Shown: positions 1,130 to 17,201 of the stretch, piece after piece
Position numbering within the stretch: position 1 is the first letter of the stretch
Layout: every line of letters starts with the position of its first letter
NCBI RefSeq assembly: GCF_014189855.1
Contig: NZ_BJFN01000002.1
Span: forward strand, 434,001-498,000
Length of the DNA: 64,000 bases
Source: Buttiauxella sp. A111
GTDB taxonomy: Bacteria > Pseudomonadota > Gammaproteobacteria > Enterobacterales > Enterobacteriaceae
Reading direction: 5' to 3'
The notes under the pieces: generated by a model
Told to the model about the DNA's origin: nothing
The model's database searches: none
Seen by the model: the letters and a program-made list of their open reading frames with translations, nothing else
Translations under genes and position numbers: made by a program

Positions 1130-1861
1130 ATGAAAACCCCACAGGCAAGCATTTCAGAATCCGTCACTCAACATCTTGCGCGACGAATTATGCACGGCGA
1201 TCTCGCGCCGGGGCTTTCACTGCCTGGTGAGAACGAACTGGCCGTCGAATATGAAGTCTCACGCACTTCCGTGCGCAATGCGCTCCAGGTTCTTGCGGCA
1301 AAAGGACTTATCTCTATTCAGGCCAAAAAACGCAGCACAGTGAACAGTCGCGAGCAGTGGAGCCTGCTGGATATCGACGTACTGGGCTGGCTGGCTGAAG
1401 GCGAACTTGACCTGAAACTGGTTGAGCAACTGATCGTGACGCGTCTGATTTTCGAGCCAAACGTGGCAACGCTTGCGGCACTCAATGCCAACGGTCACGA
1501 TCTGGCAGCAATGGAAGATGCACTCTTACTGATGCGTAAAGGCCAGCTTGAAGCACAAAAATCCTTGTTTGAAGAAGGCGATATGGCGTTTCACCATGCC
1601 TTATTACGCGCCACGCATAACCCCTTTCTTTTAGCACTCGGAAATGCACTTTCCGCAGCCATGGCGCTCTCCTTCCGGCAAACGCTTGAAAAAGACGTAC
1701 GCCAGACGAAAGCTGCCGTCGATGAACACTACCTGCTGTTTGATGCCATACGCCTTAAACAAATCGATAATGCTCGCCTACAAATGCGCAATATTCTGCT
1801 CAATGCCGCCAAAAAACGGATCTGGCAAGATCGGCCGGAAATGTTCGACCACATAATTTGA
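1130..1861 (+). CDS. GntR-family (FadR/FCD subfamily) regulator of the sugar-acid cluster, DgoR-like
   Basis: Transcriptional regulator with an N-terminal winged helix-turn-helix (about residues 10-75, with ELAVEYEVSRTSVRNALQVL as the recognition part) and an all-helical FCD ligand domain (about 90-230) containing the HHALLRATHNP and EHYLLFDAI blocks, which include the typical metal-binding histidines. The resemblance to E. coli DgoR, the galactonate repressor, covers the whole length. I chose ATG at 1130 (243 aa) over a TTG seven codons upstream because the protein then begins just before the HTH domain, as in relatives; the Shine-Dalgarno is weak (GAGA). It heads the cluster and is transcribed in the same direction. 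By family it should repress the cluster and release DNA on binding a sugar acid or its 2-keto-3-deoxy derivative; which one is not shown. Confidence 0.85.
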   Translation: MKTPQASISESVTQHLARRIMHGDLAPGLSLPGENELAVEYEVSRTSVRNALQVLAAKGLISIQAKKRSTVNSREQWSLLDIDVLGWLAEGELDLKLVEQLIVTRLIFEPNVATLAALNANGHDLAAMEDALLLMRKGQLEAQKSLFEEGDMAFHHALLRATHNPFLLALGNALSAAMALSFRQTLEKDVRQTKAAVDEHYLLFDAIRLKQIDNARLQMRNILLNAAKKRIWQDRPEMFDHII

Positions 1862-1921
1862 TCCTCAACTGATGTAATTTCGATCTCCCTCACACTTCGT
1901 GGCGTTTTTTTGTTCTAGCAT

Positions 1922-1952
1922 TCTTGTATTACAAGATTGCATGGTTTGTATT
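1922..1952 (+). promoter_or_regulatory. Candidate operator and promoter for dgoK
   Basis: TCTTGTA-T-TACAAGA (1922-1936) is a perfect 15-bp palindrome. Its core TTGTATTACAA fits the TNGTNNNACNA pattern expected for FadR-type regulators. A second partial copy (TTTGTATTAC) begins at 1945. A possible promoter is TTGTAT (1924-1929), a 17-bp spacer and TGTATT (1947-1952), so the palindrome would cover the -35 box. The predicted transcription start would then fall on or next to the dgoK ATG at 1959. The operator is the firmer part of this call; the promoter boxes are imperfect. Confidence 0.5.
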
Positions 1953-1958
1953 ACTTGA

Positions 1959-2861
1959 ATGAACAACAACTGGATTGCCATCGATTGGGGAACCACTAAC
2001 TTCCGTGCATTTTTAATGCAGGGTTCGCAGCAGGTATCCCGTATTAGTGAAGCCTGCGGACTACTGTCCGTAGAAAAAAATCAATTTGCCCCAACGCTTC
2101 ACAACCTGCTGCAAACCTGGCTTGAGCAATATGGCAATTTGCCGATTGTGATGGCGGGTATGGTGGGTTCGCAGCAAGGCTGGCATGAGGTGCCTTATGC
2201 GCCACTACCATGCAGCGCGCGTGATTTGTCTTCACGCACACTGGCTTTCACCACTCCGTGGGGAAGCCCGGCATGGGTGATTCCCGGTGCTAACAGCACC
2301 AGTCAGTTTGGTCAGCCAGATGTAATGCGTGGTGAAGAAGTACAATTGTTAGGGCTGGCAGCACGCCATCCGGCAGACCAACTGAGCGCTTTGCTGCCCG
2401 GCACGCACAGCAAACACGCGCAAATGCACAACGGTGAAATAACGTCATTCTCCACCTTTATGACCGGCGAGATTTTCTCGTTACTTTCGCAGCACTCTAT
2501 TCTTGGGCGCGGGTTACCGGAACAGCAAGAAGACGAAGAAGCGTTCCTGCTGGGCGTGAAAAACGCAAAACAGGGTGCGCCATTTACCCATTTAATTTTC
2601 TCCGCGCGCACGCGCCGCCTGGCTGGAGAAATCCCTGAATCCAGCGTCCACAGTTATCTCTCCGGCTTAACGATTGGCTACGAATTACTGGCGTTGCCTG
2701 TTGGGCAGCATACCTGGATCGTGGGCAGCCCGTCGTTAAGCGCTCGCTATCAGCTGGCAGCAAGCTTGCTGGATCTCAATCTATCTCCTGCCAACGGCGA
2801 TGACTGCTTCATTCATGGCCTGTGGCACCTCTTTACCCTGCTTCAAGGAAACCCGTCATGA
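1959..2861 (+). CDS. dgoK: 2-dehydro-3-deoxygalactonokinase
   Basis: Phosphorylates 2-keto-3-deoxygalactonate (KDGal) with ATP to KDPGal in the cytoplasm. The N-terminal IAIDWGTTN stretch (about 7-15) is the phosphate-binding loop of the ASKHA kinase fold. VMAGMVGSQQGW, VMRGEEVQLLG, LPGTHSKH and MTGEIFSLL are DgoK family blocks. Length 300 aa compared with 292 in E. coli. The protein begins where the E. coli enzyme does, but I see no Shine-Dalgarno before the ATG. A five-codon frame starting at 1941 ends in TGA immediately before it, so translation may be leaderless or coupled. The stop overlaps the next start as ATGA. First structural gene of the cluster. Confidence 0.93.
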   Translation: MNNNWIAIDWGTTNFRAFLMQGSQQVSRISEACGLLSVEKNQFAPTLHNLLQTWLEQYGNLPIVMAGMVGSQQGWHEVPYAPLPCSARDLSSRTLAFTTPWGSPAWVIPGANSTSQFGQPDVMRGEEVQLLGLAARHPADQLSALLPGTHSKHAQMHNGEITSFSTFMTGEIFSLLSQHSILGRGLPEQQEDEEAFLLGVKNAKQGAPFTHLIFSARTRRLAGEIPESSVHSYLSGLTIGYELLALPVGQHTWIVGSPSLSARYQLAASLLDLNLSPANGDDCFIHGLWHLFTLLQGNPS

Positions 2862-3505
2862 TCCCGGAAAATTTCATTGCTCAATGGCAAAAAGAGCCAT
2901 TACCACTGGTCGCCATTTTGCGCGGCATCACCCCTGCCGACGCTGCCGAAGCGGCAGGAATCTTGCTGGAATTCGGCTTCCGTTATCTTGAAGTACCGCT
3001 CAATAGCCCCTCGCCGCTGGAATCCATTTCCCTGATGCGCAAAGTCGTGGGTGAACGCGGTTACGTAGGCGCAGGCACGGTGCTGACGGTTGCGCAGGTT
3101 GATGCGGTTGCCGAGTGCGGTGGGCAACTGATTATTTCGCCAAACTGCTGCCCTGATGTTATCCGCCACACCAGTAAACTCGGGCTAATCAGCATGCCTG
3201 GCATCATGACACCCAGCGAAGCGTTCAGCGCCATTGCCGCCGGTGCCAGCGCTCTGAAACTCTTTCCAGCCGAACATGTCAGCCCTGTGATAACCAAAGC
3301 TTTTCGCGCGGTGGTCCCACGCGAAGTGGCGTTGTTACCGGTTGGCGGTATTCAGCCAGATGCCGCGCAAATGCGTAGTTACATGCAGGCAGGTGCCAAC
3401 GGTTTCGGCCTTGGCGGCGGGCTTTATCAGGCAGGAATGAGCCTGGATTTGCTGCGTGAACGTGCGCAGGCTTATCAACACGCCTGGCGCGCGGTTGCGG
3501 AGTAA
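2858..3505 (+). CDS. dgoA: 2-dehydro-3-deoxy-6-phosphogalactonate aldolase
   Basis: Class I aldolase cleaving KDPGal to pyruvate and glyceraldehyde-3-phosphate. The KDPG-aldolase TIM barrel has E45 in LEVPLNSP and the Schiff-base lysine K134 in SALKLFPAE; the phosphate loop is GGIQPDAAQ followed by GLGGGLYQAG. ATG at 2858 sits within the end of dgoK, with AAGGA eight bases upstream, giving 215 aa (E. coli DgoA, 205). A longer in-frame start at 2822 would add residues not expected for the family. The overlap with dgoK implies translational coupling. E. coli KDPG aldolase Eda belongs to the same fold, but the dgoK partner favours the galacto substrate. Confidence 0.92.
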   Translation: MIPENFIAQWQKEPLPLVAILRGITPADAAEAAGILLEFGFRYLEVPLNSPSPLESISLMRKVVGERGYVGAGTVLTVAQVDAVAECGGQLIISPNCCPDVIRHTSKLGLISMPGIMTPSEAFSAIAAGASALKLFPAEHVSPVITKAFRAVVPREVALLPVGGIQPDAAQMRSYMQAGANGFGLGGGLYQAGMSLDLLRERAQAYQHAWRAVAE

Positions 3506-3508
3506 ATC

Positions 3509-4378
3509 ATGAATCAGGCATTCGGTGGGAATATCGAGGTGATTGGCGATTATCGCGCTCAGTTGGGTGAAACGCCGGTGTGGTGCAGCCGTAGCGACTC
3601 GCTGCTATGGGTCGATATTCTGCAAAACCGCCTGCTGCGTTACTGGCCAAATCAAGCCGGACGCGTGGATATTCACCCGATGCCTATTTTCACCAGTGCG
3701 GTACTGCTGACAACTCAGCCTGAGACATTTCTGGTGGTAAGCCAAAGCGGTATCGCGCTCTATCACTATCAAAACCAGCAATTTAGCAGCCTTTGCGCGT
3801 GGCCTGATGATGCCGCCGGAACGCGCCCTAACGAAGCCGCCATAGCACCCGATGGTTCACTGTGGTTTAGCACCATGGACCCGGCGGCGCAAAGCGCGAT
3901 CGGAGGCTGGTATCGCGTCAGCATTCACGCACTCACGCCCCAACGTTTGCTGGGCGATTTACTCGTCCCCAATACCCTGCAATGGATCGATGGAAACGTC
4001 TGGTTTGCCGATTCGCTGCGCCACATGTTTTACCGCGCAACGCTGCAACCAGACGGCTTGCACATCGAACAAGAATACCCGGTATCCGGCATTCCCGACG
4101 GCTCAACGCTCACCGCCAAAGGTGAACTCATCAATGCTTGTTGGGGAAGTTCGTGCCTGATGCGCTACCAAATCAACGGCCACCAAATGATTGAGGCCGG
4201 GCAGCTGGAACTTCCGGTCAGCCAGCCCAGCAGTTGCACCTTCGGTGGCCCTAATTTGTCCGATCTCTACATCACTTCTGCACGAGATGGACTTGCTCTA
4301 CCCGTCGCCCAGGATGGCGCGGTTTTAAAAATAACAACAACAGTTGCGGGCAGACCCGCCTGCGAATTCAGGCTCTAA
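3509..4378 (+). CDS. SMP-30/gluconolactonase-family lactonase
   Basis: A six-bladed beta-propeller that by family hydrolyses an aldonolactone to the free aldonic acid using one divalent metal. The metal-ligand positions are visible: the Glu of GETPVW near residue 17, the Asn of VPNTLQW and the Asp of IPDGSTL; the substrate-side motif RPNEAAIAPDGSLWF is also present. 289 aa, no signal peptide, so cytoplasmic. It begins three bases after the dgoA stop with GGAG upstream, in one transcript with dgoKA. In this context it would open galactonolactone or a related lactone produced by the SDR dehydrogenase at the end of the cluster. That substrate is inferred. Confidence 0.88.
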   Translation: MNQAFGGNIEVIGDYRAQLGETPVWCSRSDSLLWVDILQNRLLRYWPNQAGRVDIHPMPIFTSAVLLTTQPETFLVVSQSGIALYHYQNQQFSSLCAWPDDAAGTRPNEAAIAPDGSLWFSTMDPAAQSAIGGWYRVSIHALTPQRLLGDLLVPNTLQWIDGNVWFADSLRHMFYRATLQPDGLHIEQEYPVSGIPDGSTLTAKGELINACWGSSCLMRYQINGHQMIEAGQLELPVSQPSSCTFGGPNLSDLYITSARDGLALPVAQDGAVLKITTTVAGRPACEFRL

Positions 4379-4402
4379 GTCAAAAAATTTTGAGGTGTTA
4401 CC

Positions 4403-5827
4403 ATGAGCACAATTTCTAACCCTACACATACGAATCGCCAGACGATCCTCGTCTGTTTCCTCGCGGCCCTGGCCGGGCTGCTGTTTGGCCTGGACATGGG
4501 CGTCATCGCAGGGGCACTGCCCTTTATTGCGAATGAATTTGGTTTAAGCAGCCACCACCAGGAAATTGTTGTCAGCATCATGATGTTGGGTGCCGCACTC
4601 GGCGCCTTATGCAGCGGCCCCATGTCTTCCAGTCTTGGGCGTAAGAAAAGCCTGCTGCTGGGTGCGGTGCTGTTTGTCATTGGCTCCATCGGTTGTGCCG
4701 TGGCGCACAGCATGGAGATCCTCGCCGTATCACGTTTTATCCTCGGACTCGCCGTAGGCGTTGCGTCCTTCACCGCCCCGCTGTATCTGTCTGAAATCGC
4801 GCCGGAACGTATTCGCGGCAGCATGATTTCGCTTTATCAGTTGATGATTACCATCGGTATTCTTGCCGCATTCCTGTCTGATACCGCACTCAGCGAAGGT
4901 GGCCACTGGCGCTGGATGCTCGGCGTTATTACCTTCCCGGCAATCATCCTCTTTATTGGCGTACTGACCCTGCCGGAAAGCCCACGCTGGCTGGCGATGA
5001 AAGACAAGCACGAACTGGCCGGAAAGGTGCTGAAACTACTGCGTAACTCCGATAAAGAAGCGCAGGACGAACTCAATCAGATCCGCGAAAGCGTGAAGAT
5101 GAAGCAGCGCGGTTTGCAGCTTTTCCGCCATAACCCTAACTTCCGCCGCTCCACTTACATGGGCGTGTTGCTCCAGTTTATGCAGCAGTTTACCGGTATG
5201 ACGGTGATCATGTACTACGCGCCAAAGATCTTCGAGATCGCCGGATTCTCTACCACTAAAGAACAAATGTGGGGCACGGTTATCGCGGGTTTAACCAACG
5301 TGCTGGCGACGTTTATTGCCATTGCGTTGGTCGACCGCTGGGGGCGCAAACCTATCCTGAAACTGGGCTTCTCTGGAATGGCCATCTGCATGGGCATCCT
5401 GGGATATATGTTCCACAGCGGAATTTCTAACCCAACCGAGCAATACACCGCCGTTATCGTGCTGCTGATTTTCATCACTGGTTTTGCCATGAGCGCAGGC
5501 CCGCTTATCTGGGTGCTGTGTTCTGAGATCCAACCGTTGGCAGGTCGTGATTTTGGCGTCACCTGCTCCACGATGGCGAACTGGATTGCCAACATGATCA
5601 TCGGCGCAACCTTCCTGACGCTTATCGACACCATCGGCAGCCCGAACACCTTCTGGCTGTATGGCGTGCTGAATGTCGTTTGTATTGTGCTGACTATTCT
5701 TTTCGTCCCTGAAACCAAAAACATTTCCCTGGAACACATCGAACGCAACTTAATGCGCGGCAAGCCGCTGCGTGACATCGGCCAGCCACAACAAGGCAAG
5801 GCCACACAAACAACTGCAACAGAATAA
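4403..5827 (+). CDS. Sugar:H+ symporter of the MFS sugar-porter family, GalP-like
   Basis: Twelve-helix inner-membrane proton symporter. Sugar-porter hallmarks are all present: [17 protein letters not shown] in helix 1, GRKKS after helix 2, PESPRWL after helix 6, [17 protein letters not shown] in helix 7, DRWGRKP after helix 8 and VPETKN at the end of helix 12. Resemblance is close to E. coli GalP (464 aa) and somewhat less to AraE; the length here is 474 aa with a short extra C-terminal tail. GAGGTG precedes the ATG. Placed 24 bp after the lactonase, it would bring in the free aldose (galactose or a pentose such as arabinose) for oxidation. An E. coli-type galP elsewhere in the genome cannot be excluded, so this may be a second, cluster-specific copy. 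Confidence 0.87.
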
Positions 5828-5837
5828 AACAACAACA

Positions 5838-5860
5838 GGCCTGAGGCATGAACTCAGGCC
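5838..5860 (+). promoter_or_regulatory. Hairpin between the two transporter genes
   Basis: GGCCTGAG (5838-5845) pairs perfectly with CTCAGGCC (5853-5860) across a seven-base loop. No T-run follows, so it is unlikely to terminate transcription. It more likely acts as an mRNA stability or processing element that sets different levels for the sugar porter upstream and the anion porter downstream. Confidence 0.5.
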
Positions 5861-5881
5861 CCCTCTACCCTGGAGATGAAC

Positions 5882-7270
5882 ATGAGTGAATTAATAGAAA
5901 GAAAATCAGCGGACTCCACTGCTGAATCAAAGGTCTACAACAAGATTACCCGGCGGCTGATCCCGTTTTTAATCTTGTGTTATTTCTTCGCCTATCTGGA
6001 CCGCGTTAACGTCGGGTTTGCCAAGCTGCATATGCAGGATGCGCTGAATTTCAGCGATACGGTGTACGGCCTCGGCGCAGGCATTTTCTTCATCGGCTAC
6101 TTTCTGTTTGAGATGCCAAGCAACTTGCTGATGCAGAAATTTGGCCCACGCTTCTGGATTGCCCGCATCATGGTCACCTGGGCGGTGCTCTCCGCCGGCA
6201 TGATGTTCGTCACCACGCCCACACAGTTTTACGTGGTGCGCTTTTTGCTCGGTGTAGCAGAAGCCGGGTTCTTCCCAGGGATCGTGTTTTATCTCACGCT
6301 GTGGTTCCCGTCATGGCGCTCGGCTCGCACGCTGGGGCTGTTTATCCTGGTGACCCCGCTGTCGACCATTATTGGCAGCCCGCTTTCCGGCCTGATCCTC
6401 AAAGTATTTGAAGGTGTCGGTCATCTGCATAACTGGCAATGGCTGTTTTTGGTCGAAGCGATCCCCTCTTTCTTGCTGGCCTTCGTGGTTCTGCGCTATC
6501 TCGATAACGACGTGAAATCAGCCAAATGGTTGAGCGATGCTGAGAAGCAGGTCGTCATTAATGATCTCGCCAAAGACGCAGCCAACCGGGCGCTCGCCAA
6601 TAAAGGCAAAGTGGACAGTAGCCTGAAAGGGATGCTGAAAAATGGCTATGTCTGGCTGCTGGCGCTGGTATTTTTCAGCTTCAACATTGGTTACTACGGC
6701 ATCAACTTCTGGCTGCCGTCGATTATCAAAACTTCCGGTGTGAGCGACGATTTCCATATCGGCTTGCTGGCTGCCCTACCGTACGTCTTCGGGGCTGCAT
6801 TTATGGTGTGGAACAGCCGTCACTCTGACCTGAAGCAAGAGCGCCGCTGGCATATCGCGATTCCGGCTCTGATTGGTTGTGTCGGGCTGACGCTGAGCGC
6901 GTATTGCAGCGGCTCCACCTTCTGGATGATGGCATGGATTTGCGTGGCGATGTCCGGCACCCTGGCGCTAATCCCAACGTATATCAGCCTCCCCGGCGCG
7001 TTGCTATCAGGCACGGCCGCCGCTGCGGGCATCGCTTTTGTTAACTCCATCGGCAACCTTGCCGGATTCTTTGGCCCAACGGTGCTCGGCTGGCTGAAAG
7101 ATACCACCGGGCGTACAGACATCGGTTTATACATCCTGGCGGGCTTCCTGCTGCTGTGTGTGCCGTTAATCCTGGCGCTGCCCGCACGTCTGGCGAACCC
7201 GAAAAAAGTTATCGCTTCACCTGAACAGAACGATGCGCAGTCTGAAACTGCACATCACATTAGTCGTTAA
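5882..7270 (+). CDS. MFS transporter of the anion:cation symporter family, probable aldonate permease
   Basis: Twelve predicted membrane helices. The first carries the anion:cation symporter signature YLDRVNVGFAKLHM, and helix 5 has GVAEAGFFPGIVFYLTLWFP, as in hexuronate, galactonate and tartrate permeases (DgoT, ExuT and relatives). Two ATGs lie six bases apart. The second (5882) has GGAG at proper distance and is preferred, giving 462 aa. By family and context it would import a sugar acid such as galactonate by proton symport, so the cluster can be fed by aldose or by preformed aldonate. The N-terminal tail is charged and cytoplasmic. Substrate assignment is inference. Confidence 0.87.
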   Translation: MSELIERKSADSTAESKVYNKITRRLIPFLILCYFFAYLDRVNVGFAKLHMQDALNFSDTVYGLGAGIFFIGYFLFEMPSNLLMQKFGPRFWIARIMVTWAVLSAGMMFVTTPTQFYVVRFLLGVAEAGFFPGIVFYLTLWFPSWRSARTLGLFILVTPLSTIIGSPLSGLILKVFEGVGHLHNWQWLFLVEAIPSFLLAFVVLRYLDNDVKSAKWLSDAEKQVVINDLAKDAANRALANKGKVDSSLKGMLKNGYVWLLALVFFSFNIGYYGINFWLPSIIKTSGVSDDFHIGLLAALPYVFGAAFMVWNSRHSDLKQERRWHIAIPALIGCVGLTLSAYCSGSTFWMMAWICVAMSGTLALIPTYISLPGALLSGTAAAAGIAFVNSIGNLAGFFGPTVLGWLKDTTGRTDIGLYILAGFLLLCVPLILALPARLANPKKVIASPEQNDAQSETAHHISR

Positions 7271-7291
7271 CGTGAGAAAGAGATTAAGCAT

Positions 7292-8998
7292 ATGAGTGGA
7301 TGTGGCGGATGTGCCAGTTGTGGCACGCATTTCAACCCAATCCTTGAAGGTGACGACGGCGCGCTAAAACGTGCGCTGTATAAATCCATGGGGCATACCG
7401 ACGAGCAATTACGCAAACCGGTGATTGCCGTGGTTAACAGTTACACCAATGCAACCGCAGGTCATGCCAACCTGAATGAACTCACGGCAAAAGTGTTGGA
7501 AGGTATTGAAGAAGCCGGTGGTGTTGGCATGGTGTTTGGCACCATCGCGCCGTGCGACGGCATTGCAGAAGGGCATCTGGGGATGCGTTATATCCTCGCC
7601 GCCCGCGAGGTGATTACCGCGTCCATCGAAGTGATGATGCGCGCCCACCGTTTTGACGGCATGGTGCTGCTCGGTTCGTGCGATAAAATCGTACCCGCAA
7701 TGCTCATGGCGGCCGCGCGGCTGGATATCCCGGCGATTATGGTCAACGGCGGCCCGATGTATCCAGCTGAATACAAAGGCAAACACTGGGACGGTAACAT
7801 TGTAACCGAAGCCATTGGCTGGAAAAAACGCGGTGAAATCAGCGAGGAAGAATTCGCTCATATTGAAAACATCGCAGAACCTGGGCCGGGTTCATGCACC
7901 ATGTACGGCACGGCGAACACCATGTGCTGTATTGGTGAAGTGCTGGGCATGAGCCTGCCGGGCAGCAGTACCTTGCCAGCTGTCTCGCAAGAACGCCGCG
8001 ATTGCGCCGTAGAAACTGGCCGTCAGGCGGTGGAACTGGTGCTAAATGGCGTGAATGCTCGCCAGATTATTACGGCGGAATCTATTCATAACGCGATGGT
8101 TTATCTGCTGGCAACCGGTGGCTCAACCAACGCGATTCTGCATCTCCAGGCGATTTATTACGAAGCCGAACTGGGCCATCTGCCGCTTTCAGCCTTTGAC
8201 AAACTGAGCCACAAGGTTCCGTTGGTTGCCTCACTTTACCCAGCTTCTGAGCACGACATGATCGACTTCTGGGAAGCAGGTGGCGTGCAGGCAGTGGAGC
8301 ATGAAATCAGCACACTGATGCATCTGGACGCACTGACTGTCGCGGGTAAAACCAAACGCGAATTGCATGCCGAAGGAAAACGCAGCTGCCGCCCGGAAGT
8401 CATCCATACGCTCGCGATTCCAGTGCGTAACGAAGCGGGCGTCGCCGTGCTTCACGGCAATCTTTCTCCGCTGGGTTGTGTGGTGAAACCTGCGGCGGTA
8501 CCGGAAAACCTGATGGTATTCCGTGGCCCGGCGGTGGTGTTCAACAGTGAGCAAGAATCCGTTGATGCGATTATGTCCGGGGAAATCAAACCGGGCAGCG
8601 TGCTGGTGTTGCGTTATGAAGGGCCAAAAGGCGGGCCTGGCATGCCGGAAATGTACAAGCCAATGAAATCCCTGGAAGGCATGGGGCTTTCCGATACCTG
8701 CGCGCTGATCACCGATGGGCGTTTTTCTGGATCCAACCGCGGGTTATTTGTCGGCCATATTTCGCCTGAAGCGGTGGATGGCGGTGAACTGGGTCTGGTG
8801 GAAGACGGTGACGAAATCTCGATTGATATTCCAACACGTATGCTGACGTTACACGTTTCCGAAGAAATCCTGGCCACACGTCGTGAAAACTGGAAGCCAG
8901 TGAACAAAGAAGTACCGCGTGGTTTCCTGCGTTTGTATCGCCGTTGGGCGTTGCCAGCCGCTCAAGGTGCGGTGCTGGCAGACAGGGAGGATGACTAA
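7292..8998 (+). CDS. IlvD/Edd-family iron-sulfur sugar-acid dehydratase
   Basis: Belongs to the dihydroxyacid/6-phosphogluconate dehydratase family, which removes water from a 2,3-dihydroxy acid using a [2Fe-2S] or [4Fe-4S] cluster plus Mg2+. C130 in GSCDK, with the next lysine K132 a probable carbamylated Mg ligand, and C202 in PGPGSCTMYGTANTM are cluster ligands; the catalytic serine lies in ITDGRFSGSNRG. The N-terminus is unusual, with Cys at 4, 7 and 10. At 568 aa it is about IlvD length and shorter than YjhG/YagF (about 655). Beside dgoKA it most likely makes 2-keto-3-deoxyaldonate from galactonate or a stereochemically similar acid, replacing the enolase-type DgoD, which is absent. Its stop overlaps the next start (TAATG). 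Confidence 0.88.
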   Translation: MSGCGGCASCGTHFNPILEGDDGALKRALYKSMGHTDEQLRKPVIAVVNSYTNATAGHANLNELTAKVLEGIEEAGGVGMVFGTIAPCDGIAEGHLGMRYILAAREVITASIEVMMRAHRFDGMVLLGSCDKIVPAMLMAAARLDIPAIMVNGGPMYPAEYKGKHWDGNIVTEAIGWKKRGEISEEEFAHIENIAEPGPGSCTMYGTANTMCCIGEVLGMSLPGSSTLPAVSQERRDCAVETGRQAVELVLNGVNARQIITAESIHNAMVYLLATGGSTNAILHLQAIYYEAELGHLPLSAFDKLSHKVPLVASLYPASEHDMIDFWEAGGVQAVEHEISTLMHLDALTVAGKTKRELHAEGKRSCRPEVIHTLAIPVRNEAGVAVLHGNLSPLGCVVKPAAVPENLMVFRGPAVVFNSEQESVDAIMSGEIKPGSVLVLRYEGPKGGPGMPEMYKPMKSLEGMGLSDTCALITDGRFSGSNRGLFVGHISPEAVDGGELGLVEDGDEISIDIPTRMLTLHVSEEILATRRENWKPVNKEVPRGFLRLYRRWALPAAQGAVLADREDD

Positions 8999-9903
8999 TG
9001 GCTAAGCACTTTACCGCGCAGGAAATTGTTGGCGTTAACCCGATTACCGCCATGCCATTTACCACCAGCGGAGAGATTGACGAACACAGTTTTGTGCGTC
9101 TGCTGGAACATCTCTCCACCAGTGGCGCGCAAGGCACTACGCTGTTCGGCATCGCCAGTGAGTTTCCAAAGTTGCATGACATGGAACGTGACCGCCTGGC
9201 GCAAGTGTTTGTTTCAACGCTGGCGGGCAGCCCGCTTTACCGGGCGATGTCGGTCACCGACCACAGCACCGAGCTTGCCGTGAAACGCGCACGTGACTAC
9301 GCAAAATTGGGCGTGGACGTGCTAATGCTTCTCCCACCCTTTTTCCTGAGCCCGAGTCCACAGGCAATTCAGGAACATATTTTTGCGGTGTTGGAAGCGG
9401 TAGATATTCCGGTCATGGTGCAGTACGCGCCGGGTGAAACCGGTTTGCCGATAACACCCGAGCAAATGGCAGAGATCGCCGCGCGTTACCCGCATGCGGT
9501 ATTTAAAATCGAGTGTAATCCACCGGTGGATTACACTCGCGAGTTCTTAAGCAAAGCGCCGCAGGCCAGCGTACTCAACGGTTACGCCGGGCTGTATATG
9601 CTGCAAATGCTGGCGGCAGGCGGCAAAGGCGTGATGCCTGGCTGTTCATTTACCGAAGCCTACGTGCGTATTTATCGCCACTGGCAAAACGGCGAACAGC
9701 AGCAGGCCGAAGCATTGCATCAGGCGCTGCTGCCGTACATCCAGCGCTGGATGACCCATTGTGAATACATCATTCAGGTTGAGAAAACGATTCTCGCGCG
9801 GCGTGGGATTATTGCGACCGACTACTGCCGCCGCCCAGGCTGGCAGTTGACCGCCGAAGATAGCCAATTAATCGACCGCTTCCTTTCCGATTTCCTACTC
9901 TAA
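8998..9903 (+). CDS. DapA-family (dihydrodipicolinate synthase-like) pyruvate aldolase
   Basis: A class I pyruvate-dependent aldolase TIM barrel of 301 aa. The Schiff-base lysine is K170 (VFKIEC), the catalytic tyrosine Y143 (VQYAPGETG), and the substrate loop is GTTLFGIASEF, where DapA has GTTGES, so it is not housekeeping lysine biosynthesis. Relatives such as E. coli YagE and YjhH cleave 2-keto-3-deoxyaldonates without phosphorylation. It overlaps the dehydratase stop by one base, which suggests the two act in sequence: dehydratase product cleaved to pyruvate plus an aldehyde. Having this as well as DgoA gives the cluster two possible exits, phosphorylated and non-phosphorylated. The real substrate is unknown. 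Confidence 0.87.
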   Translation: MAKHFTAQEIVGVNPITAMPFTTSGEIDEHSFVRLLEHLSTSGAQGTTLFGIASEFPKLHDMERDRLAQVFVSTLAGSPLYRAMSVTDHSTELAVKRARDYAKLGVDVLMLLPPFFLSPSPQAIQEHIFAVLEAVDIPVMVQYAPGETGLPITPEQMAEIAARYPHAVFKIECNPPVDYTREFLSKAPQASVLNGYAGLYMLQMLAAGGKGVMPGCSFTEAYVRIYRHWQNGEQQQAEALHQALLPYIQRWMTHCEYIIQVEKTILARRGIIATDYCRRPGWQLTAEDSQLIDRFLSDFLL

Positions 9904-9907
9904 ACTT

Positions 9908-9931
9908 AAGCTGCGGCGAGCCCGCAGCTTT
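9908..9931 (+). terminator. Hairpin with short T-run before the SDR gene
   Basis: AAGCTGCGG (9908-9916) pairs with CCGCAGCTT (9922-9930) across a five-base loop and runs into a short T-run. It looks like a weak intrinsic terminator or attenuator placed directly in front of the SDR gene, whose GAGG ribosome site begins four bases later. It would reduce SDR expression relative to the upstream genes. Confidence 0.55.
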
Positions 9932-9943
9932 TTGAGGTTTATT

Positions 9944-10726
9944 ATGAGCAATCAAAAATCCGCACGCGTAGTGATTGTGACCGGGACCAGCCAGGGCATC
10001 GGCCAGGCTATCGCGCAAACCTTTTTAGATAACGGCGATATTGTTATTGGCTGCGCGTTTTCACCGCTGGAGAAAGCGCCTCGAGCCCAGAAAATGCTGG
10101 CTGAAAATCCCGAGCGCTATTTCTATTTTTCCGTCGACGTCACCAAAACCGAGTCGATCAAACAGTTCGTCAGCGACGCGGAAAAACTGTTTGGCCGTAT
10201 TGATGTGGTGGTGTCCAACGCCGGGAAAAACGTCTTCAAAGGGATCGATTGTGAAGTGAGTGATTGGGCGCACAACTTTGATCTTAACCTGCGCTCCCAC
10301 TGGTATCTGGCGAAATGCGCCCGCCCGGCGCTTGCCAAAAGCAAAGGCACGATCCTGGTGATCACTTCCAATCACGCGTTTTCCACCATGCCAGGCTGTG
10401 CGCCGTATAACATTAGCAAACGCGCCCTGCTTTCACTGGTACAAAGCCTGACTATCGAATGGGGGCCAGAGATTCGTACCGTGGGTATTGCGCCAGGTTT
10501 TATTGATACCGACGGTAACCAGGTATGGTTTGATTCTCATGCTGATGGAAAATCGGCGCGTGAAAAAACCATCAAAAAGCACCCGGTTGGGCGTATTGGA
10601 CAGCCGGAAGAAGTGGGTGATTTGTGCCTGTTTTTAGCCAGCGATAAAGCCGGTTTTATTGCGGGAACCACGATTGTGATGGACGGCGGGCGCAGTGCGA
10701 TCATGCAGGATGAAGACGACGAATAG
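9944..10726 (+). CDS. Short-chain dehydrogenase/reductase, probable aldose dehydrogenase
   Basis: Classical SDR of 260 aa with a Rossmann TGTSQGIG loop (residues 13-20), NAG at 92-94 and the catalytic triad S142, Y155, K159 (YNISK); the C-terminal SDKAGFIAGTTIVMDGG is typical. ATG at 9944 has GAGG six bases upstream and is preferred over an upstream TTG. The Asp of DVT fits NAD(P) binding, but the cofactor cannot be decided from sequence. As last gene of a cluster with a lactonase and a sugar porter, the simplest role is oxidation of the imported aldose to its lactone. The alternative is reduction of the aldehyde released by the DapA-type aldolase. Followed by a strong terminator. Confidence 0.83.
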   Translation: MSNQKSARVVIVTGTSQGIGQAIAQTFLDNGDIVIGCAFSPLEKAPRAQKMLAENPERYFYFSVDVTKTESIKQFVSDAEKLFGRIDVVVSNAGKNVFKGIDCEVSDWAHNFDLNLRSHWYLAKCARPALAKSKGTILVITSNHAFSTMPGCAPYNISKRALLSLVQSLTIEWGPEIRTVGIAPGFIDTDGNQVWFDSHADGKSAREKTIKKHPVGRIGQPEEVGDLCLFLASDKAGFIAGTTIVMDGGRSAIMQDEDDE

Positions 10727-10732
10727 CCAAAA

Positions 10733-10758
10733 AAATGGGGAGCCAAAGCTCCCCATTT
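10733..10758. terminator. Bidirectional terminator between the sugar-acid cluster and ispH
   Basis: AAATGGGGAGC (10733-10743) and GCTCCCCATTT (10748-10758) form an 11-bp stem with a CAAA loop. Read leftward the stem is followed by seven T residues, a strong end for the ribF-ileS-lspA-fkpB-ispH operon. Read rightward the tail is weaker but sufficient to end the sugar-acid operon. Confidence 0.88.
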
Positions 10759-10820: not shown

Positions 10821-11771
10821 TTACTGGACTTCTTTGATATCCAGTCGCAATTCGCGCGGCACTTCGAAAATAATATTTTCTTCGCGTCCGACGAGCTCAC
10901 GGGCTTCGCTGCCGCCGAGTTCGCGCAAACGTGCCAGAACGTTTTGCACCAGAATATCTGGCGCGGACGCGCCCGCAGTAACACCCACACAGGTAGCACC
11001 TTTAACCCACTCTTCCTGGATATCCGTCGCATCATCAATCAGATACGCCGCTTTCCCCATACGCTGCGCAAGTTCGGCAAGACGGTTGGAGTTAGAAGAG
11101 TTTTTCGAGCCAACAACCAGCACGACATCGGCTTCATCTGCCAAAGCTCGCACTGCTTCCTGACGGTTAGTGGTGGCGTAGCAAATGTCGTCTTTACGCG
11201 GGCCGATGATTTTCGGGAAGCGTTTACGCAACGCGTCAATCACGTCAGAAGTGTCATCCACAGAGAGCGTGGTCTGGGTCATAAACGAAAGTTTGGCTTC
11301 GTTTTTCACATCCAGCTTGCTGACATCTTCCGGTGATTCGACCAGGTACATTCCCCCTTTCGGGTTGCTGTACTGACCCATGGTGCCTTCCACCTCTGGG
11401 TGGCCGGCATGGCCAATCAGAATGGACTCTTCACCACGACGGCTGGCGCGAGCCACTTCCATATGCACTTTGGTGACTAATGGGCAGGTCGCATCAAACA
11501 CGGTTAAATCACGGCCTTTGGCTTCGCTACGCACAGCCTGGGAAACTCCGTGAGCCGAGAAAATCAGGATTGCGCCATCTGGCACTTCACTAATTTGTTC
11601 GATGAAAATAGCCCCGCGCTCACGCAGGCTGTCTACCACGTAACGGTTATGCACCACTTCGTGGCGGACATAAATTGGCGCGCCGTAAATGGCCAGCGCG
11701 TTTTCAACAATGCTGATAGCGCGGTCTACCCCGGCACAAAAACCCCGAGGGTTAGCCAACAGGATCTGCAT
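10821..11771 (-). CDS. ispH: 4-hydroxy-3-methylbut-2-enyl diphosphate reductase
   Basis: Last enzyme of the MEP isoprenoid pathway, reducing HMBPP to IPP and DMAPP with a [4Fe-4S] cluster. The cluster cysteines are C12 (RGFCAGV), C96 ([11 protein letters not shown]) and one in the NRQEA[15 protein letters not shown] region of the third domain. 316 aa, the same as E. coli IspH. The start lies inside the fkpB 3' end with a 20-base overlap, so the two are translationally coupled. In E. coli rihC follows directly; here the operon ends at a strong terminator and unrelated genes follow. Confidence 0.98.
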
Positions 11772-12222
11772 TCAACGCCTCCAGTACCGGGTTAACTTCC
11801 AGTACTTCGATATCAAAATGAATGGTTTGCCCGGCCAGTGGGTGGTTAAAGTCAACGGTGATGGAATCCCCGTTAACTTCACGCACTACGCCAGGCATCT
11901 CGCTGCCATCCATTGCGGTGAACAACATAATTGCACCCGGCACCGGCTCGCCCGCGTCAATAAATTCACGACGCGAGAAATACTGGATCATGTCTGGGCT
12001 TGGAATACCAAACGCCGACTCCGGTGCCAAAGAGAATGCTTTCTTATCCCCTGCTTTCAAACCGACAAGCTGGTCTTCCATGCCTGGCGACAGCGTTTCG
12101 TCGCCCAGCGTGAAGAGTGCCGGCTTGCCATTATTGCGCGTTGACTCGGCAGTGGAACCATCTTCGAGTTTCAGCGTGAAATGCACCAAAACTCTGCTAT
12201 TGGCCTGGATAGACTCAGCCAT
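11752..12222 (-). CDS. fkpB: FKBP-type peptidyl-prolyl cis-trans isomerase FkpB (SlpA)
   Basis: SlyD-like FKBP with an FK506-binding fold interrupted by an insert-in-flap chaperone domain, which catalyses proline isomerisation in the cytoplasm. [37 protein letters not shown] and [13 protein letters not shown] are family blocks. It is 156 aa, slightly longer than E. coli FkpB (149), with the extra residues at the C-terminus running into ispH. Three bases separate it from the lspA stop. It sits within the ileS-lspA-ispH transcript, as throughout enterobacteria. Confidence 0.96.
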
Positions 12223-12225
12223 GGA

Positions 12226-12732
12226 TTACCCTTTTTGCTTTGCGGGCTTGTCGGAGGAGACAAAGAACCCCTCCAAAACAATCAGCGCCGCACCGATACA
12301 GATTGCCGTATCGGCCAAATTAAACGTTGCGAAGTGCCAATCGCCGACATAAAAATCGATCATGTCGACCACAAAACCGTGCCACAAGCGATCAAACAGG
12401 TTGCCAAGTGCACCGCCAATAATTAAAGCATAGGCGATGTTATGCAGCTTCTGCGTTGCTTTGGAACGATACATCAGCACCGCCAGAATCACGCAAATAC
12501 CAATGGCGATTCCTGCAAAGAACCAGCGCTGCCATCCGCCTTTATCCGCAAGGAAACTAAACGCAGCACCATAGTTACGGGCGTAATGCAGGTTCAGCGA
12601 CGGGAACAGCGATACTGTGTCCCCCAGCATGAAATGCTGGAGGATCAGGTATTTGCTGCCCAGGTCGACGATAAGAACCACGACCACCAGCCACAGCCAA
12701 CGCAAACCAGTCGAACAAATCGATTTACTCAT
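12226..12732 (-). CDS. lspA: Lipoprotein signal peptidase (signal peptidase II)
   Basis: Inner-membrane aspartic protease that removes the signal peptide from diacylglyceryl prolipoproteins. Four hydrophobic helices are visible. The catalytic aspartates lie in the conserved [19 protein letters not shown] and FNLADTAI stretches, and NYGAAFSFL is the family motif before helix 2. 168 aa, near E. coli (164). The start overlaps the ileS stop as TGATG, indicating coupling. Confidence 0.97.
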
Positions 12733-15548
12733 CAGGCAAACTTACGCTTTTCGCCGTCACCGGCTACGTTGGTGACACAGCGGCCACAGATTTCTGCGTG
12801 TTCCGCTACCTGACCGACGTCAGTGGTGTAATGCCAGCAGCGCGGGCACTTCTCACCATCGGCTTTACGCAGAGCCACTTTCAAACCTTTGAGGATTTCG
12901 CTTGGCTGAGCGTCTTCAGTTGCCTGCGCATAATCGGCAACTTCAGCACCAGAGGTCAACAGGACAAATCGTAATTCATCGCCGAGACTGTTGAGCTTCG
13001 CGGCCAGGTCGTTGTCGGCATACAGGGTGACTGCTGCTTCCAGAGAACCGCCCACACGCTTGTCAGCACGCGCTTGTTCGATAACTTTGTTCACTTCGCC
13101 ACGCACGGTTAACAGCGTGTCCCAGTAATCATTGTTCATCGTTTCGCTATCAGCCAAACCGAACAGACCCTCGTACCATTCGCCGGTGAAGACGTATTTC
13201 TCACGGTTACCAGGCAGGTAAGCCCAGATTTCGTCAGCGGTGAAGGACATGATCGGTGCCATCCAGCGAACCAGCGCCTCTGCAATGTGGAACAGAGCAG
13301 TCTGGCAGCTACGACGTGCAACACTGTCGGACTTCGCGGTGTACTGGCGATCTTTAATGATGTCGAGATAGAACGAGCCCATTTCGATGGAGCAGAAACG
13401 CATCAGGCGTTGCACCACTTCGTGGAAATCGTAGTTTTCGTAAGCCGCAAGGATATCGGCCTGCGCTTCTTGCGCACAACCCACTGCCCAGCGATCCAGT
13501 TTCACCATCTCTTCTGGTTTCACCATATCGGTTTCTGGATTGAAGCCGTTCAGGTTCGCCAGCAGGAAGCGTGCGGTGTTACGGATACGACGATAAGCGT
13601 CAGCAGCGCGTTTCAGGATTTCGTCAGAAACGGCCATTTCGCCGGTGTAATCCGTAGATGCCACCCACAGACGCAGAATATCCGCGCCCAGTTTGTTCAT
13701 CACATCTTGCGGAGAAACGGTGTTACCGATGGATTTGGACATTTTGCGGCCCTGACCATCAACGGTGAAACCGTGAGTCAGTACCTGGCGGTAAGGCGCT
13801 TTGCCTTTCATCGCAGTCGAAATCATCAGTGAAGACATGAACCAGCCGCGGTGCTGATCTGAACCTTCCAGATACATGTCTGCCGCGTGGCCATTGAATT
13901 CAGGGCGCACATCAACAACAGAGGAGTGCGTAGAACCGGAGTCGAACCACACGTCCAGGGTGTCTGGCACTTTGGTGTAGTTGTCAGCATCGTCGCCCAT
14001 GATGTCGCGTGGGTCGAGATCCCACCACGCCTGGATGCCGTCTTGCTCCACGCGTTTAGCGACTTCTTCCATCAGTTCCAACGTGCGCGGGTGCAGCTCT
14101 TCAGTGTCTTTGTGAACGAACAGAGACATTGGCACGCCCCAGGTACGCTGACGAGAGATACACCAGTCCGGACGGTTAGCGACCATCGATTCGATACGCG
14201 CCTGGCCCCAGTCAGGGATCCACTGCACGCCTTTGATCTCTTTCAGAGACTGCTCGCGCAGGCCTTTCTGATCCATGCTCACAAACCACTGAGGCGTTGC
14301 ACGGAAGATAATCGGCGTTTTGTGACGCCAGCAATGCGGGTAGCTGTGCAGCAGTTTTTCAACGTGCAGCAGAACGCCTTTATCACGCAGGATGTTGACC
14401 ACCAGGTCGTTCGCTTTGAAGACCTGAACACCGTCCAGTCCTTCATAAGTGCCTGGCAGATAGCAGCCATCCGGGCCAACCGGGTTAGCCACTTCCAGGC
14501 CGTATTTCTGGCCAATGACGTAGTCGTCCGGGCCGTGGCCAGGTGCTGTATGAACTGCACCCGTACCGGCTTCCAGCGTAACGTGCTCACCCAGAATCGC
14601 TGGAACGTCGAAATCTAAGAACGGGTGTTTGAAACGCATCAGGTCCAGTTCTGCACCTTTCACGGTGCCCAGAACTTGCCATTCGCCGATACCTGCGCTT
14701 TTCATTACGCTTTCGAGCAAATCTTTTGCCACGATCAGCGCCTGGCCATCAACCTGTACCAGCACGTATTCGAATTCTGCATTCAAAGAAACAGCGCGGT
14801 TAGCAGGCAGAGTCCACGGAGTGGTGGTCCAGATAACCAGAGATACCGGGCCATTAACTTGCGTTGCGCCAAACTTAGCTTTTACCGCGTCGGCATCAAC
14901 AGCATGGAAGTTAACAAAGATGGACGGCGAAGTTTTGTCGTAGTACTCAACTTCCGCTTCAGCCAGCGCTGAACGGCAGTCGACGCACCAGTGAACAGGT
15001 TTAGCCCCTTTATGCAGGTGGCCATTACCCACGATTTTGCCGAGCGCACGGATGATGTTCGCTTCGGTTTTGAAATCCATCGTCAGGTACGGACGTGACC
15101 AGTCGCCCAACACACCCAGACGGATGAAGTCAGCACGTTGACCATCAACTTGTTCTGCCGCGTATTTACGACAGGCTGCACGGAATTCCGCCGCAGACAC
15201 TTTCTCGCCTGGCTTACCAATAAGCTGCTCAACTTTCAGCTCGATAGGCAGACCGTGGCAGTCCCAACCTGGCACATACGGGGAATCAAAACCGCTCAGT
15301 CCTTTGGACTTCACGATAATGTCTTTCAGAATCTTGTTTACTGAGTGACCAATATGAATGTTGCCGTTCGCGTATGGAGGGCCATCATGCAAAATGAAGG
15401 ATTTTTTGCCTTTCTTTGCATTACGGATGATGCCGTACAGGTCATCATCATTCCAGCGAGCCAGCATGCCCGGTTCACGTTTAGCGAGATCGCCACGCAT
15501 CGGGAACCCTGTTTCCGGTAAATTCAGGGTAGATTTAAAGTCACTCAT
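12732..15548 (-). CDS. ileS: Isoleucyl-tRNA synthetase
   Basis: Class I aminoacyl-tRNA synthetase, 938 aa as in E. coli. The HIGH motif is [11 protein letters not shown] (about residues 58-68) and the KMSKS loop [10 protein letters not shown] (about 600); the CP1 editing domain lies between, with [13 protein letters not shown] and the [12 protein letters not shown] editing-site stretch. The C-terminal zinc finger is CPRCWHYT plus CGRCV. It charges tRNA-Ile and hydrolyses Val-tRNA-Ile. It lies 28 bp after ribF in the same operon. Confidence 0.99.
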
Positions 15549-15576
15549 TAGATTCTCAGTTCCGTAGTTAGCTTGC

Positions 15577-16509: not shown

Positions 16510-17100
<591 letters not shown>

Positions 17101-17122
17101 TCGCCTTTCTGTTGTTAGCTTG

Positions 17123-17150
17123 AAAAAAACCGGCTTATGCCGGTTTTTTT
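17123..17150. terminator. Bidirectional terminator between rpsT and nhaR
   Basis: AAAAAAACCGGC and GCCGGTTTTTTT form a symmetric stem around a TTAT loop, with A and T runs on both sides. It can end rpsT rightward and nhaR leftward. Confidence 0.92.
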
Positions 17151-17170
17151 ATATCTAAAATTCAGGCTGC

Positions 17171-17201
17171 TATACCCTATGCATCAAGAATGACGGGTAT
17201 C
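17171..17201. repeat. Minimal ERIC remnant overlapping the nhaR stop
   Basis: The two ERIC termini TATACCCTA and ATGACGGGTATC are separated by only about ten bases. The nhaR stop codon (17184-17186) and its last five to six codons lie inside this remnant, so the C-terminal residues of NhaR are repeat-derived. Confidence 0.65.

Follow-up and report, generated by a model that had tools for sequence, protein, structure and literature searches.

The nine genes at positions 1130–10726 of the window, i.e. the whole analyzed stretch of 64,000 nucleotides from Buttiauxella sp. A111, are a real and conserved set. With a probability of roughly 60% they represent a De Ley-Doudoroff-type catabolic operon for galacto-configured sugars and acids of the D-galactose/D-fucose type, with DgoK and DgoA as one exit. 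More tentatively, the DapA-family protein may belong to an uncharacterised DHDPS/NAL type which has neither the aldolase tyrosine nor the second base of L-2-keto-3-deoxyarabonate (L-KDA) dehydratase. Its action on a galacto-configured keto-deoxy acid could be that of a 4-epimerase or of a hydro-lyase with a single base; paired with the Cys-tailed IlvD-type enzyme, the protein could open the D-galactonate route of enterobacteria and vibrios to a second aldonate, such as D-fuconate or a stereoisomer. If the main reading is right, a whole oxidative pathway for sugars is encoded by a single operon in some enterobacteria, in addition to their usual genes for galactose and galactonate, and the reaction of a DHDPS-fold enzyme is not readable from the annotation "dihydrodipicolinate synthase family", which could be corrected in Buttiauxella, Rahnella, Hafnia, Vibrio and Photobacterium.

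All nine open reading frames were present on the plus strand and their family assignments were confirmed. As the preliminary description had proposed, they run in one direction between rihC and ispH and overlap or nearly touch. Both neighbours lie on the opposite strand; the eight gaps measured, in order, 97, −7, 3, 24, 48, 21, −1 and 40 bp. The GC content of the operon is 54.1%, that of the window 51.3%. The common terminator claimed earlier was recovered in part: a hairpin with an 11-bp stem in the sdr-ispH intergenic region (10733–10758, entered without a strand) folds strongly (−23.2 kcal/mol, z −5.2 against 200 shuffles), but the scan listed it, with its T-run, on the minus strand and hence as belonging to the transcription of ispH. 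In E. coli K-12 ispH is directly followed by rihC, and the dgo operon is found at another locus with a different dehydratase, in agreement with the earlier comparison. The junction is likewise intact in a Buttiauxella relative without the operon (G004), where ispH adjoins rihC.

The families required for the sequence aldose, lactone, aldonate, 2-keto-3-deoxyaldonate, phosphate, pyruvate plus GAP were all found within this one regulated operon. The GalP-like porter (474 aa, 4403–5827; 69% identity to E. coli GalP; TIGR00879, 458 bits, cut-off 238) would import the aldose, which may be D-galactose, the 6-deoxy analogue D-fucose or both, and possibly L-arabinose. Its oxidation to the lactone would be catalyzed by the SDR (260 aa, 9944–10726), a predicted aldose 1-dehydrogenase. 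The SDR scored below the cut-off of every NCBIfam family among the best 25 of 226; three of its seven PDB rows were named glucose 1-dehydrogenase or related, and its family profile gave no PDB match at 1e-50. The SMP-30 family lactonase (289 aa, 3509–4378; best PDB match 7plb) would open the lactone and seems dispensable. Where the aldose module is absent, the aldonate would be imported directly by the MFS anion porter (464 aa, 5876–7270), which is 21% identical to DgoT and scored below the cut-offs of both its best models, D-galactonate transporter and HpaX. The IlvD/EDD dehydratase (568 aa, 7292–8998) would then form the 2-keto-3-deoxyaldonate. At the first exit its 6-hydroxy form would be phosphorylated and split to pyruvate and GAP by DgoK (300 aa, 1959–2861; 2-keto-3-deoxygalactonate-type kinase, 36.5% identity to E. 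coli DgoK; Pfam DGOK PF05035, 282 bits) and DgoA (216 aa, 2855–3505; KDPGal aldolase family, 44% identity to E. coli DgoA; NF006600, 267 bits, cut-off 207). At the second, the DapA-family protein (301 aa, 8998–9903; DHDPS family, Pfam 107 bits) would engage the keto-deoxy acid through a Schiff base, the substrate probably being a form unusable by DgoK or a stereoisomer, and eliminate its 4-hydroxyl group or otherwise transform it. The route, which may bypass the Leloir pathway, had been called self-contained; this fits the genes as far as DgoA but does not place the DapA-family protein.

Among loci elsewhere that encode the DapA-family protein, 19 of 22 also contain gntR, dgoK, dgoA and the IlvD-type gene (exceptions L014, L022 and L024); these loci are kin by descent and their counts are not independent events. 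This shared content argues that the gene set is not a product of chance. Both dgoK and dgoA were present in 23 of 25 loci. The operon comprises a core (gntR, dgoK, dgoA, acid porter, IlvD-type and DapA-family genes) and an optional aldose part. The SDR was found in 16 of the 25 loci, and all loci with a full-length GalP-like porter (13) or an operon SMP-30 gene (11) were among them; the nine SDR-less loci had neither porter nor lactonase in the operon. Such a nested distribution fits a sugar-to-acid role of the three proteins. Broad genome samples revealed the rarity of the system, with 1 of 369 in the class (1e-50), 7 of 394 in the order (1e-60) and, for the IlvD-type query at 1e-150, 3 of 398 in the phylum; they added one new layout, that of genome G780.

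The first gene encodes a GntR regulator with an FCD domain (FadR-type; 243 aa, 1130–1861) which shares 36.5% identity with E. coli DgoR. A predicted DgoR-like double operator precedes dgoK on the plus strand. Its first inverted repeat, CTTGTATTACAAG (1923–1935), is a palindrome around a central base; the imperfect second repeat, TTTGTATTAC (1945–1954), follows at a distance of 22 bp (21 in E. coli dgo). Compared with the E. coli DgoR sites, 10 of 11 bases of the IR1 core and 9 of 10 of the second repeat are equal. An exact copy of the 13-mer preceded dgoK in 16 of the 23 loci scanned, and a copy with at most two mismatches in 21 (exceptions L023 and L069). That the operator is unique in the genome carries no weight on its own: the pattern, when reversed, gave two places. 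The GntR protein would repress from this operator until an aldonate-type acid occupies its metal site. Ten homologues of the 23 available were aligned, and all retained the DgoR metal triad Asp146/His150/His195 together with Arg102. From the D-galactonate-binding residues Arg102, Trp181, Thr191 and Arg224, only Arg102 was kept; the others were replaced by Leu/Ile, Ala/Ser and Lys, respectively. Since the regulator is devoid of three of the four essential D-galactonate contacts of DgoR, D-galactonate alone explains the operon poorly. Between gntR and the operator a putative CRP-like site with one good half was noted on the plus strand (TTCGATCTCCCTCACA, 1879–1894), judged by resemblance to the CRP consensus. 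Comparable letters appeared in many of the loci listed (Buttiauxella, Rahnella and others) and were absent from the Photobacterium and Vibrio rows. A second candidate regulatory palindrome, located within dapA (9510–9539), was rejected; the bases there vary among other loci.

The IlvD-type enzyme carries an invariant N-terminal cysteine tail, C4xxC7xxC10, and the further cysteines Cys88, Cys130 and Cys202, the last two in common with E. coli IlvD, Edd and YjhG. In the alignments Gly57 faces a cysteine of the dihydroxy-acid dehydratases (DHADs) 6nte and 6ovt. This position probably corresponds to Cys59 of RlArDHT, the first cysteine of the [2Fe-2S] cluster, which would thus be absent here. The predicted structure had a mean pLDDT of 69.5, with values of 31–37 for residues 1–20, which include the cysteine tail. 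The L-arabinonate enzyme matched the protein at 3e-84, but its specificity transfers weakly, because the DHAD cut-off was passed (TIGR00110, 642 bits, cut-off 618) and the best 12 PDB matches were all DHADs. A plain DHAD role in valine and isoleucine synthesis is nevertheless disfavoured by the sugar operon setting and by Gly57 and Cys88, which differ from the aligned DHADs. For a characterised IlvD/EDD enzyme, the excerpt of PMC11316719 (Table 3) gives kcat/Km values per mM per min of 4400 for D-fuconate, 930 for D-galactonate, 570 for L-arabinonate and 68 for D-gluconate.

The DapA-type gene had been taken for an aldolase, a label that inspection of the active site did not support. The Schiff-base residue Lys170 was conserved in all 17 aligned rows. 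In the same 17 rows, however, the aldolase proton relay is missing, with Gln142, Ile52 and Phe116 in place of Tyr145, Ser56 and Tyr119 (YagE numbering of PMC9795676; in the excerpt of that paper the numbers equal the RefSeq protein numbers plus 7 and fall on the compared columns). E. coli YjhH, YagE, DapA and NanA all have tyrosine at column 142. Tyr143, considered as the aldolase tyrosine, was rejected; the full alignment sets Gln142 at this position and Tyr143 opposite an asparagine. Three of the four catalytic residues of L-KDA dehydratase are present in all rows, Lys171, Gln143 and Glu173 corresponding to Lys170, Gln142 and Glu172, and the fourth, Glu200, is replaced by Ala197. With the relay absent and these three residues present, the aldolase label is doubtful.

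It appears unlikely that the operon is a classic De Ley-Doudoroff system for D-galactose and D-galactonate only, with the DapA-family protein as an unusual non-phosphorylating KDGal aldolase using Glu172 instead of tyrosine as the base. The dgoK/dgoA families, the GalP-like porter, SMP-30 and the DgoR-like operator agree with it, as do dgo loci of Halomonas that include a COG3386 lactonase and are described as DeLey-Doudoroff in the excerpt of PMC5507952. In Vibrio penaeicida TUMSAT-NU1 (L022) dapA persists behind DgoD without ilvD, as if its product acted on KDGal, and 8 of 22 genomes searched (1e-80) have the IlvD-type gene without DgoD, which speaks for the main reading as well. On the other hand, canonical DgoD occurs in 10 of the 22 genomes and within the operon in three more, the anion porter is distant from DgoT, and both the aldolase proton relay and three essential contacts of the regulator are lost. 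Galactose or galactonate as sole substrate, as first suggested, could consequently not be upheld: D-galactonate alone is a poor explanation also because another contig of the Buttiauxella genome encodes a canonical DgoD, because the genome also has a true GalP (90.5% identity to E. coli GalP, versus 69% for the operon porter), and because in four Vibrionaceae loci (L019, L020, L021 and L023) DgoD and the IlvD-type gene stand side by side. Some findings speak against the main reading, too. Other dehydratases of the enolase family may be present where DgoD is missing: G006, G008 and G009 gave 35% matches at about 1e-45 and G003 none, and in G780 one lies near the operon. Two Vibrio genomes have lost ilvD and kept dapA, which a strict IlvD-then-DapA order would fit poorly.

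Even less probable is a Weimberg-like oxidative route for L-arabinose or D-fucose, in which the SDR, SMP-30, IlvD-type and DapA-type proteins would correspond to AraA, AraB, AraC and AraD of the oxidative L-arabinose pathway (AraA–E), the last forming alpha-ketoglutarate semialdehyde as 2-keto-3-deoxy-L-arabinonate dehydratase. The three shared catalytic residues favour it, and the first nine Foldseek matches were L-KDA dehydratase chains (TM 0.85–0.88, 24–25% identity). But the fold does not discriminate, as DHDPS and YagE rows also reached TM 0.85–0.88, a profile search ranked 3dz1, of unknown function, first, and the catalytic Glu200 is replaced. Furthermore, dgoK-dgoA would be left unexplained and the operon contains no semialdehyde dehydrogenase; the NF042993 cut-off was reached by none of 17 genomes, although 16 of them had weaker aldehyde dehydrogenases and among 14 controls only one passed, and G780 (92% complete) had no match at 1e-100. 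Very improbable, finally, is a role in series, in which the DapA-family protein would epimerise a keto-deoxy acid of other configuration at C4 by dehydration and rehydration to KDGal for DgoK and DgoA: the elimination residues without the Glu200 equivalent, dgoK-dgoA in 22 of 23 loci with the IlvD-type gene and the dispensability of an aldehyde-handling gene would suit it, but it derives purely from residues, a literature search of openly licensed PMC papers listed no title naming such an enzyme, and Hafnia locus L014 has the IlvD-type/DapA pair without local dgoK/dgoA, though with DgoD elsewhere in the genome.

The galacto-configured De Ley-Doudoroff reading places the operon among known systems as a probable variant of the galactose bypass with an unusual DapA-family active site. 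Like E. coli dgoRKADT it has a GntR/FadR regulator first, overlapping dgoK-dgoA, an anion porter and two close repeats of the TTGTA-N-TACAA type; the identities are 36.5% for DgoK, 44% for DgoA and 21% for the porter. The enolase-family DgoD is replaced here by the IlvD/EDD enzyme, the regulator pocket differs, and the DapA-family protein, SDR, SMP-30 and GalP-like porter are extra. An IlvD/EDD dehydratase gene adjoining a DHDPS-family gene is also known from the D-xylonate loci yjhG-yjhH and yagF-yagE of E. coli; identities are 32% to YjhG and 25% to YjhH, and YjhH and YagE retain the aldolase tyrosine. In the branched Entner-Doudoroff pathway of Sulfolobales a dehydratase supplies a kinase as well as an enzyme of the DHDPS family, as would be the case here. 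The gene layout differs, and the archaeal aldolase uses Tyr130 (excerpt of PMC9795676), a residue absent here. The oxidative L-arabinose pathway, in the same excerpt, shares the IlvD/EDD and DHDPS-family steps and the Lys, Gln and Glu of L-KDA dehydratase; it differs from the present operon, which has a kinase and a phospho-aldolase and neither Glu200 nor a semialdehyde dehydrogenase. Galactose oxidation, a COG3386 lactonase (Halomonas), dehydratase, kinase and aldolase follow the same logic in Rhodobacteraceae and Halomonas, with other transporters and regulators and no DapA-family partner named in the excerpt of PMC5507952. Among openly licensed PMC papers no title or abstract opening described the gene set. 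The Gln and Glu pair was also observed in 3dz1 and in a Halocatena protein, and the Gln/Glu type may extend beyond this DapA family. The gene of the Halocatena relative (36%) is located on a plasmid, next to sugar ABC genes and a gene of the enolase family.

The nine plus-strand reading frames at 1130 to 10726 (gntR, dgoK, dgoA, SMP-30, GalP-like porter, acid porter, IlvD-type gene, DapA-family gene dapA and sdr) are flanked by rihC (115-1032) and ispH (10821-11771), both on the minus strand. The window is G000:C2:434001-498000 of the 4.89-Mb genome; among named organisms, Buttiauxella has the closest relatives of its DapA-family protein. The intergenic gaps measure, in order, 97, -7, 3, 24, 48, 21, -1 and 40 bp. 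The preliminary description had claimed a De Ley-Doudoroff aldose operon inserted between rihC and ispH. Profile-based assignments agree with the gene families named there, and E. coli K-12 indeed has rihC immediately after ispH, as had been stated. Of the proposed common terminator a strong hairpin 3' of sdr was recovered, but its T-run faces the ispH side. The operon is conserved and real. It is a variant of the De Ley-Doudoroff/dgo type with an extra, biochemically undefined DapA-family step. Among the titles and abstract beginnings listed by searches of openly licensed PMC papers, none described this gene set.

Comparison of the ispH-rihC junction across relatives placed the operon there in five Buttiauxella loci (L004, L005, L007, L009, L010) and in Cedecea (L008). 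In the genus relative G004 nothing separates ispH from rihC, and in G001 the 3' side of ispH carries neither rihC nor the operon. In locus L003 ispH lies about 6.6 kb past sdr and rihC is absent. The fetched loci of Lelliottia, Budvicia, Rahnella and Hafnia contain neither rihC nor ispH; therefore the operon occupies another site there. The L003 record, named B. agrestis DSM 4586, holds an extra block between sdr and ispH (11903-17727) with two notable ORFs, one AIR-synthase-like and the other HypF-like (of the hydrogenase maturation type). With this block present and rihC missing, the junction is a possible hot spot. In genome G033 the stretch L068 3730-5924 holds a second SMP-30 gene and, after it, a 383-aa ORF without Pfam match at 1e-8. 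This SMP-30 gene, 46% identical to the operon SMP-30 of the same genome, adjoins ispH at the usual position and orientation of the operon, which itself lies on a different contig.

Peptide-pattern scanning recovered 22 loci. The DapA-like gene was detected in 9 of 11 genomes of the genus sample (1e-40), 7 of 394 of the order sample (1e-60) and 1 of 369 of the class sample (1e-50). It is patchy and rare, and extends from Buttiauxella and Rahnella as far as Vibrio and Photobacterium. Among 20,395 E. coli records the top ilvD-dapA-sdr match was a single plasmid (74% query coverage); records ranked after it reached at most 9%, on ilvD. Next to a dgoRKADT set this plasmid, pWP4-S18-ESBL-07_1 (L025), has dgoK, dgoA, a porter, ilvD and the dapA-like gene. 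There, most of the core module and dgoRKADT lie amid transposase remnants, and the plasmid is a possible vehicle for spread.

Gene content was scored in 25 loci (the window, L003-L025 and L069). Both dgoK and dgoA were found in 23; Hafnia alvei GB001 (L014) has neither, and the L022 sequence stops short of that region. The IlvD-type gene was likewise present in 23 (absent from L022 and L024). Sixteen loci have the SDR, 13 a full-length GalP-like porter (L014 has a fragment) and 11 the operon SMP-30. The SDR accompanies the porter in 13/13 and SMP-30 in 11/11 loci, and none of the nine SDR-less loci has either gene inside the operon; three of these (L021, L022, L024) have a 28% SMP-30 relative close by on the opposite strand. 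In B. noackiae and B. gaviniae the operon occupies this same ispH-rihC junction but all three genes are missing, although they sit at two different positions within it. This pattern connects the SDR with the entry of sugar, not with a late step. Given the common ancestry of the loci, the counts are not independent trials, and the nesting falls short of strict pairing (SMP-30 is missing in L007, L016 and L017, SMP-30 and GalP in L013). Genome G780 (L069) shows an alternative order, with SMP-30, IlvD-type, SDR, sodium:solute symporter and DapA-type genes consecutive, and a divergent gntR followed by dgoA-dgoK. In L014 the GalP-like fragment (6267-6824) has 29% coverage; porter, ilvD, dapA and sdr are open frames, and gntR, dgoK, dgoA and SMP-30 are locally absent. 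Expression of D-galactonate genes in cheese was reported for this strain, with no locus given in the excerpt (PMC6706770).

The genome of the window possesses a canonical DgoD, the enolase-family galactonate dehydratase, on contig 5 (89% identical to the protein of the E. coli plasmid). At 1e-80, DgoD was found in 13 of 22 genomes (that of L020 excluded): 10 canonical (81-92%) and 3 within Vibrionaceae operons (55-56%). It was absent at this threshold from nine, of which eight have the IlvD-type gene. In these eight the IlvD-type enzyme would be the only recognised keto-deoxy acid source for the operon kinase at the 1e-80 DgoD search, a reading tempered by weaker enolase-family matches at ~1e-45 in G006, G008 and G009. 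G780 has one enolase-family match near the operon, below the cut-off. In L019, L020, L021 and L023, DgoD (55-56% to E. coli) lies immediately 5' of ilvD and is preceded by a three-gene TRAP transporter (families checked on L019). The IlvD-type enzyme is thus neither a mere DgoD substitute nor DgoK-independent.

This enzyme clears the IlvD profile cut-off. Gly57 stands where the aligned dihydroxy-acid dehydratases (6nte, 6ovt) have Cys, and Cys88, Cys130 and Cys202 correspond to E. coli Edd and YjhG. An N-terminal CxxCxxC tail (7292-7330; Cys4, Cys7, Cys10) is invariant in 17/17 aligned members from Buttiauxella to Vibrio and G780; not one of these residues occurs in E. coli IlvD or YjhG, and Edd has a single aligned Cys. 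The tail is a possible extra metal or cluster ligand. A galacto-family substrate is suggested, on a distant basis, by a characterised IlvD/EDD enzyme whose preferred substrate, in the excerpted report, is D-fuconate, ahead of D-galactonate and L-arabinonate (PMC11316719).

According to the excerpt of PMC9795676, DHDPS-family aldolases use a Tyr/Ser-Thr/Tyr relay and a Schiff-base Lys, and in L-2-keto-3-deoxy-arabinonate (L-KDA) dehydratase Gln143 replaces the relay Tyr and works with Glu173 and Glu200. In the operon's DapA-family protein, Lys170, Gln142 and Glu172 are present in all 17 aligned family rows, the relay Ser and Tyr positions are Ile52 and Phe116, and the Glu200 position is Ala197. 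The same alignment retains the aldolase Tyr in E. coli YjhH, YagE, DapA and NanA; the Gln and Glu also occur in 3dz1, a structure of unknown function, and in a protein from Halocatena. With the structure model (pLDDT 91.5) the first nine search rows were L-KDA dehydratase chains (TM 0.85-0.88, 24-25% identity). DHDPS and YagE followed at similar TM, so the argument rests on residues, not on the fold. For one family of alpha-ketoglutarate semialdehyde dehydrogenase, 0/17 genomes reached the cut-off, which speaks against a full Weimberg route; 16/17 have weaker aldehyde dehydrogenases, and G780 has no match at 1e-100. An aldehyde dehydrogenase resembling that near the Vibrio operon occurs in G000, G006 and G009 (44-46%) and is absent from the remaining genus genomes searched. 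Two Vibrio genomes (L022, L024) have lost ilvD, without a match elsewhere at 1e-100, and keep the dapA-like ORF intact, in L022 immediately 3' of DgoD (54%). The DapA-family protein could be an unusual aldolase, a dehydratase or an epimerase. Unrelated filler marks the ilvD-loss junctions (L022 1180-1370, L024 9920-10004), and L024 also lacks the TRAP and DgoD genes. A 30-base perfect palindrome in dapA (9510-9539), scanned as terminator-like on the minus strand, is probably due to chance, since its bases vary between loci.

Upstream of dgoK, CTTGTATTACAAG is present in 16 of 23 loci scanned and with at most two mismatches in 21 (L022 lay outside the scan); L014, which has no dgoK, lacks the operator. 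The 64-kb window contains a single TTGTANTACAA (0.01 expected), and the whole genome a single place with CTTGTANTACAAG. As the reversed pattern occurs at two places, genome rarity carries no weight, and the case rests on position and conservation. E. coli DgoR binds two repeats, and the excerpt of PMC12288454 gives the IR1 sequence, with which the operator shares 10/11 core bases. The second repeat matches 9/10 bases of that read by us off the E. coli sequence, at a spacing of 22 bp here and 21 bp in E. coli. Based on this operator, the operon is predicted to be regulated. In the 10 regulator homologues aligned, out of 23, D146, H150, H195 and R102 of DgoR are retained, and metal-anchored acid sensing is likely. 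Alanine variants of W181, T191 and R224 lose D-galactonate binding (PMC7674646, excerpt); these positions are L/I, A/S and K in the 10 homologues. D-galactonate is doubtful as the effector; the pocket, presumably less polar, would be suited to a deoxy acid.

In two Vibrio loci (L021 16559-20260, L024 11534-16518) an aldehyde dehydrogenase and an SMP-30 relative lie close to the operon, together with a 377-aa ORF without Pfam match at 1e-8 (checked in L021) and, in L024, an enolase-family ORF. These stretches are perhaps another sugar-acid cluster.
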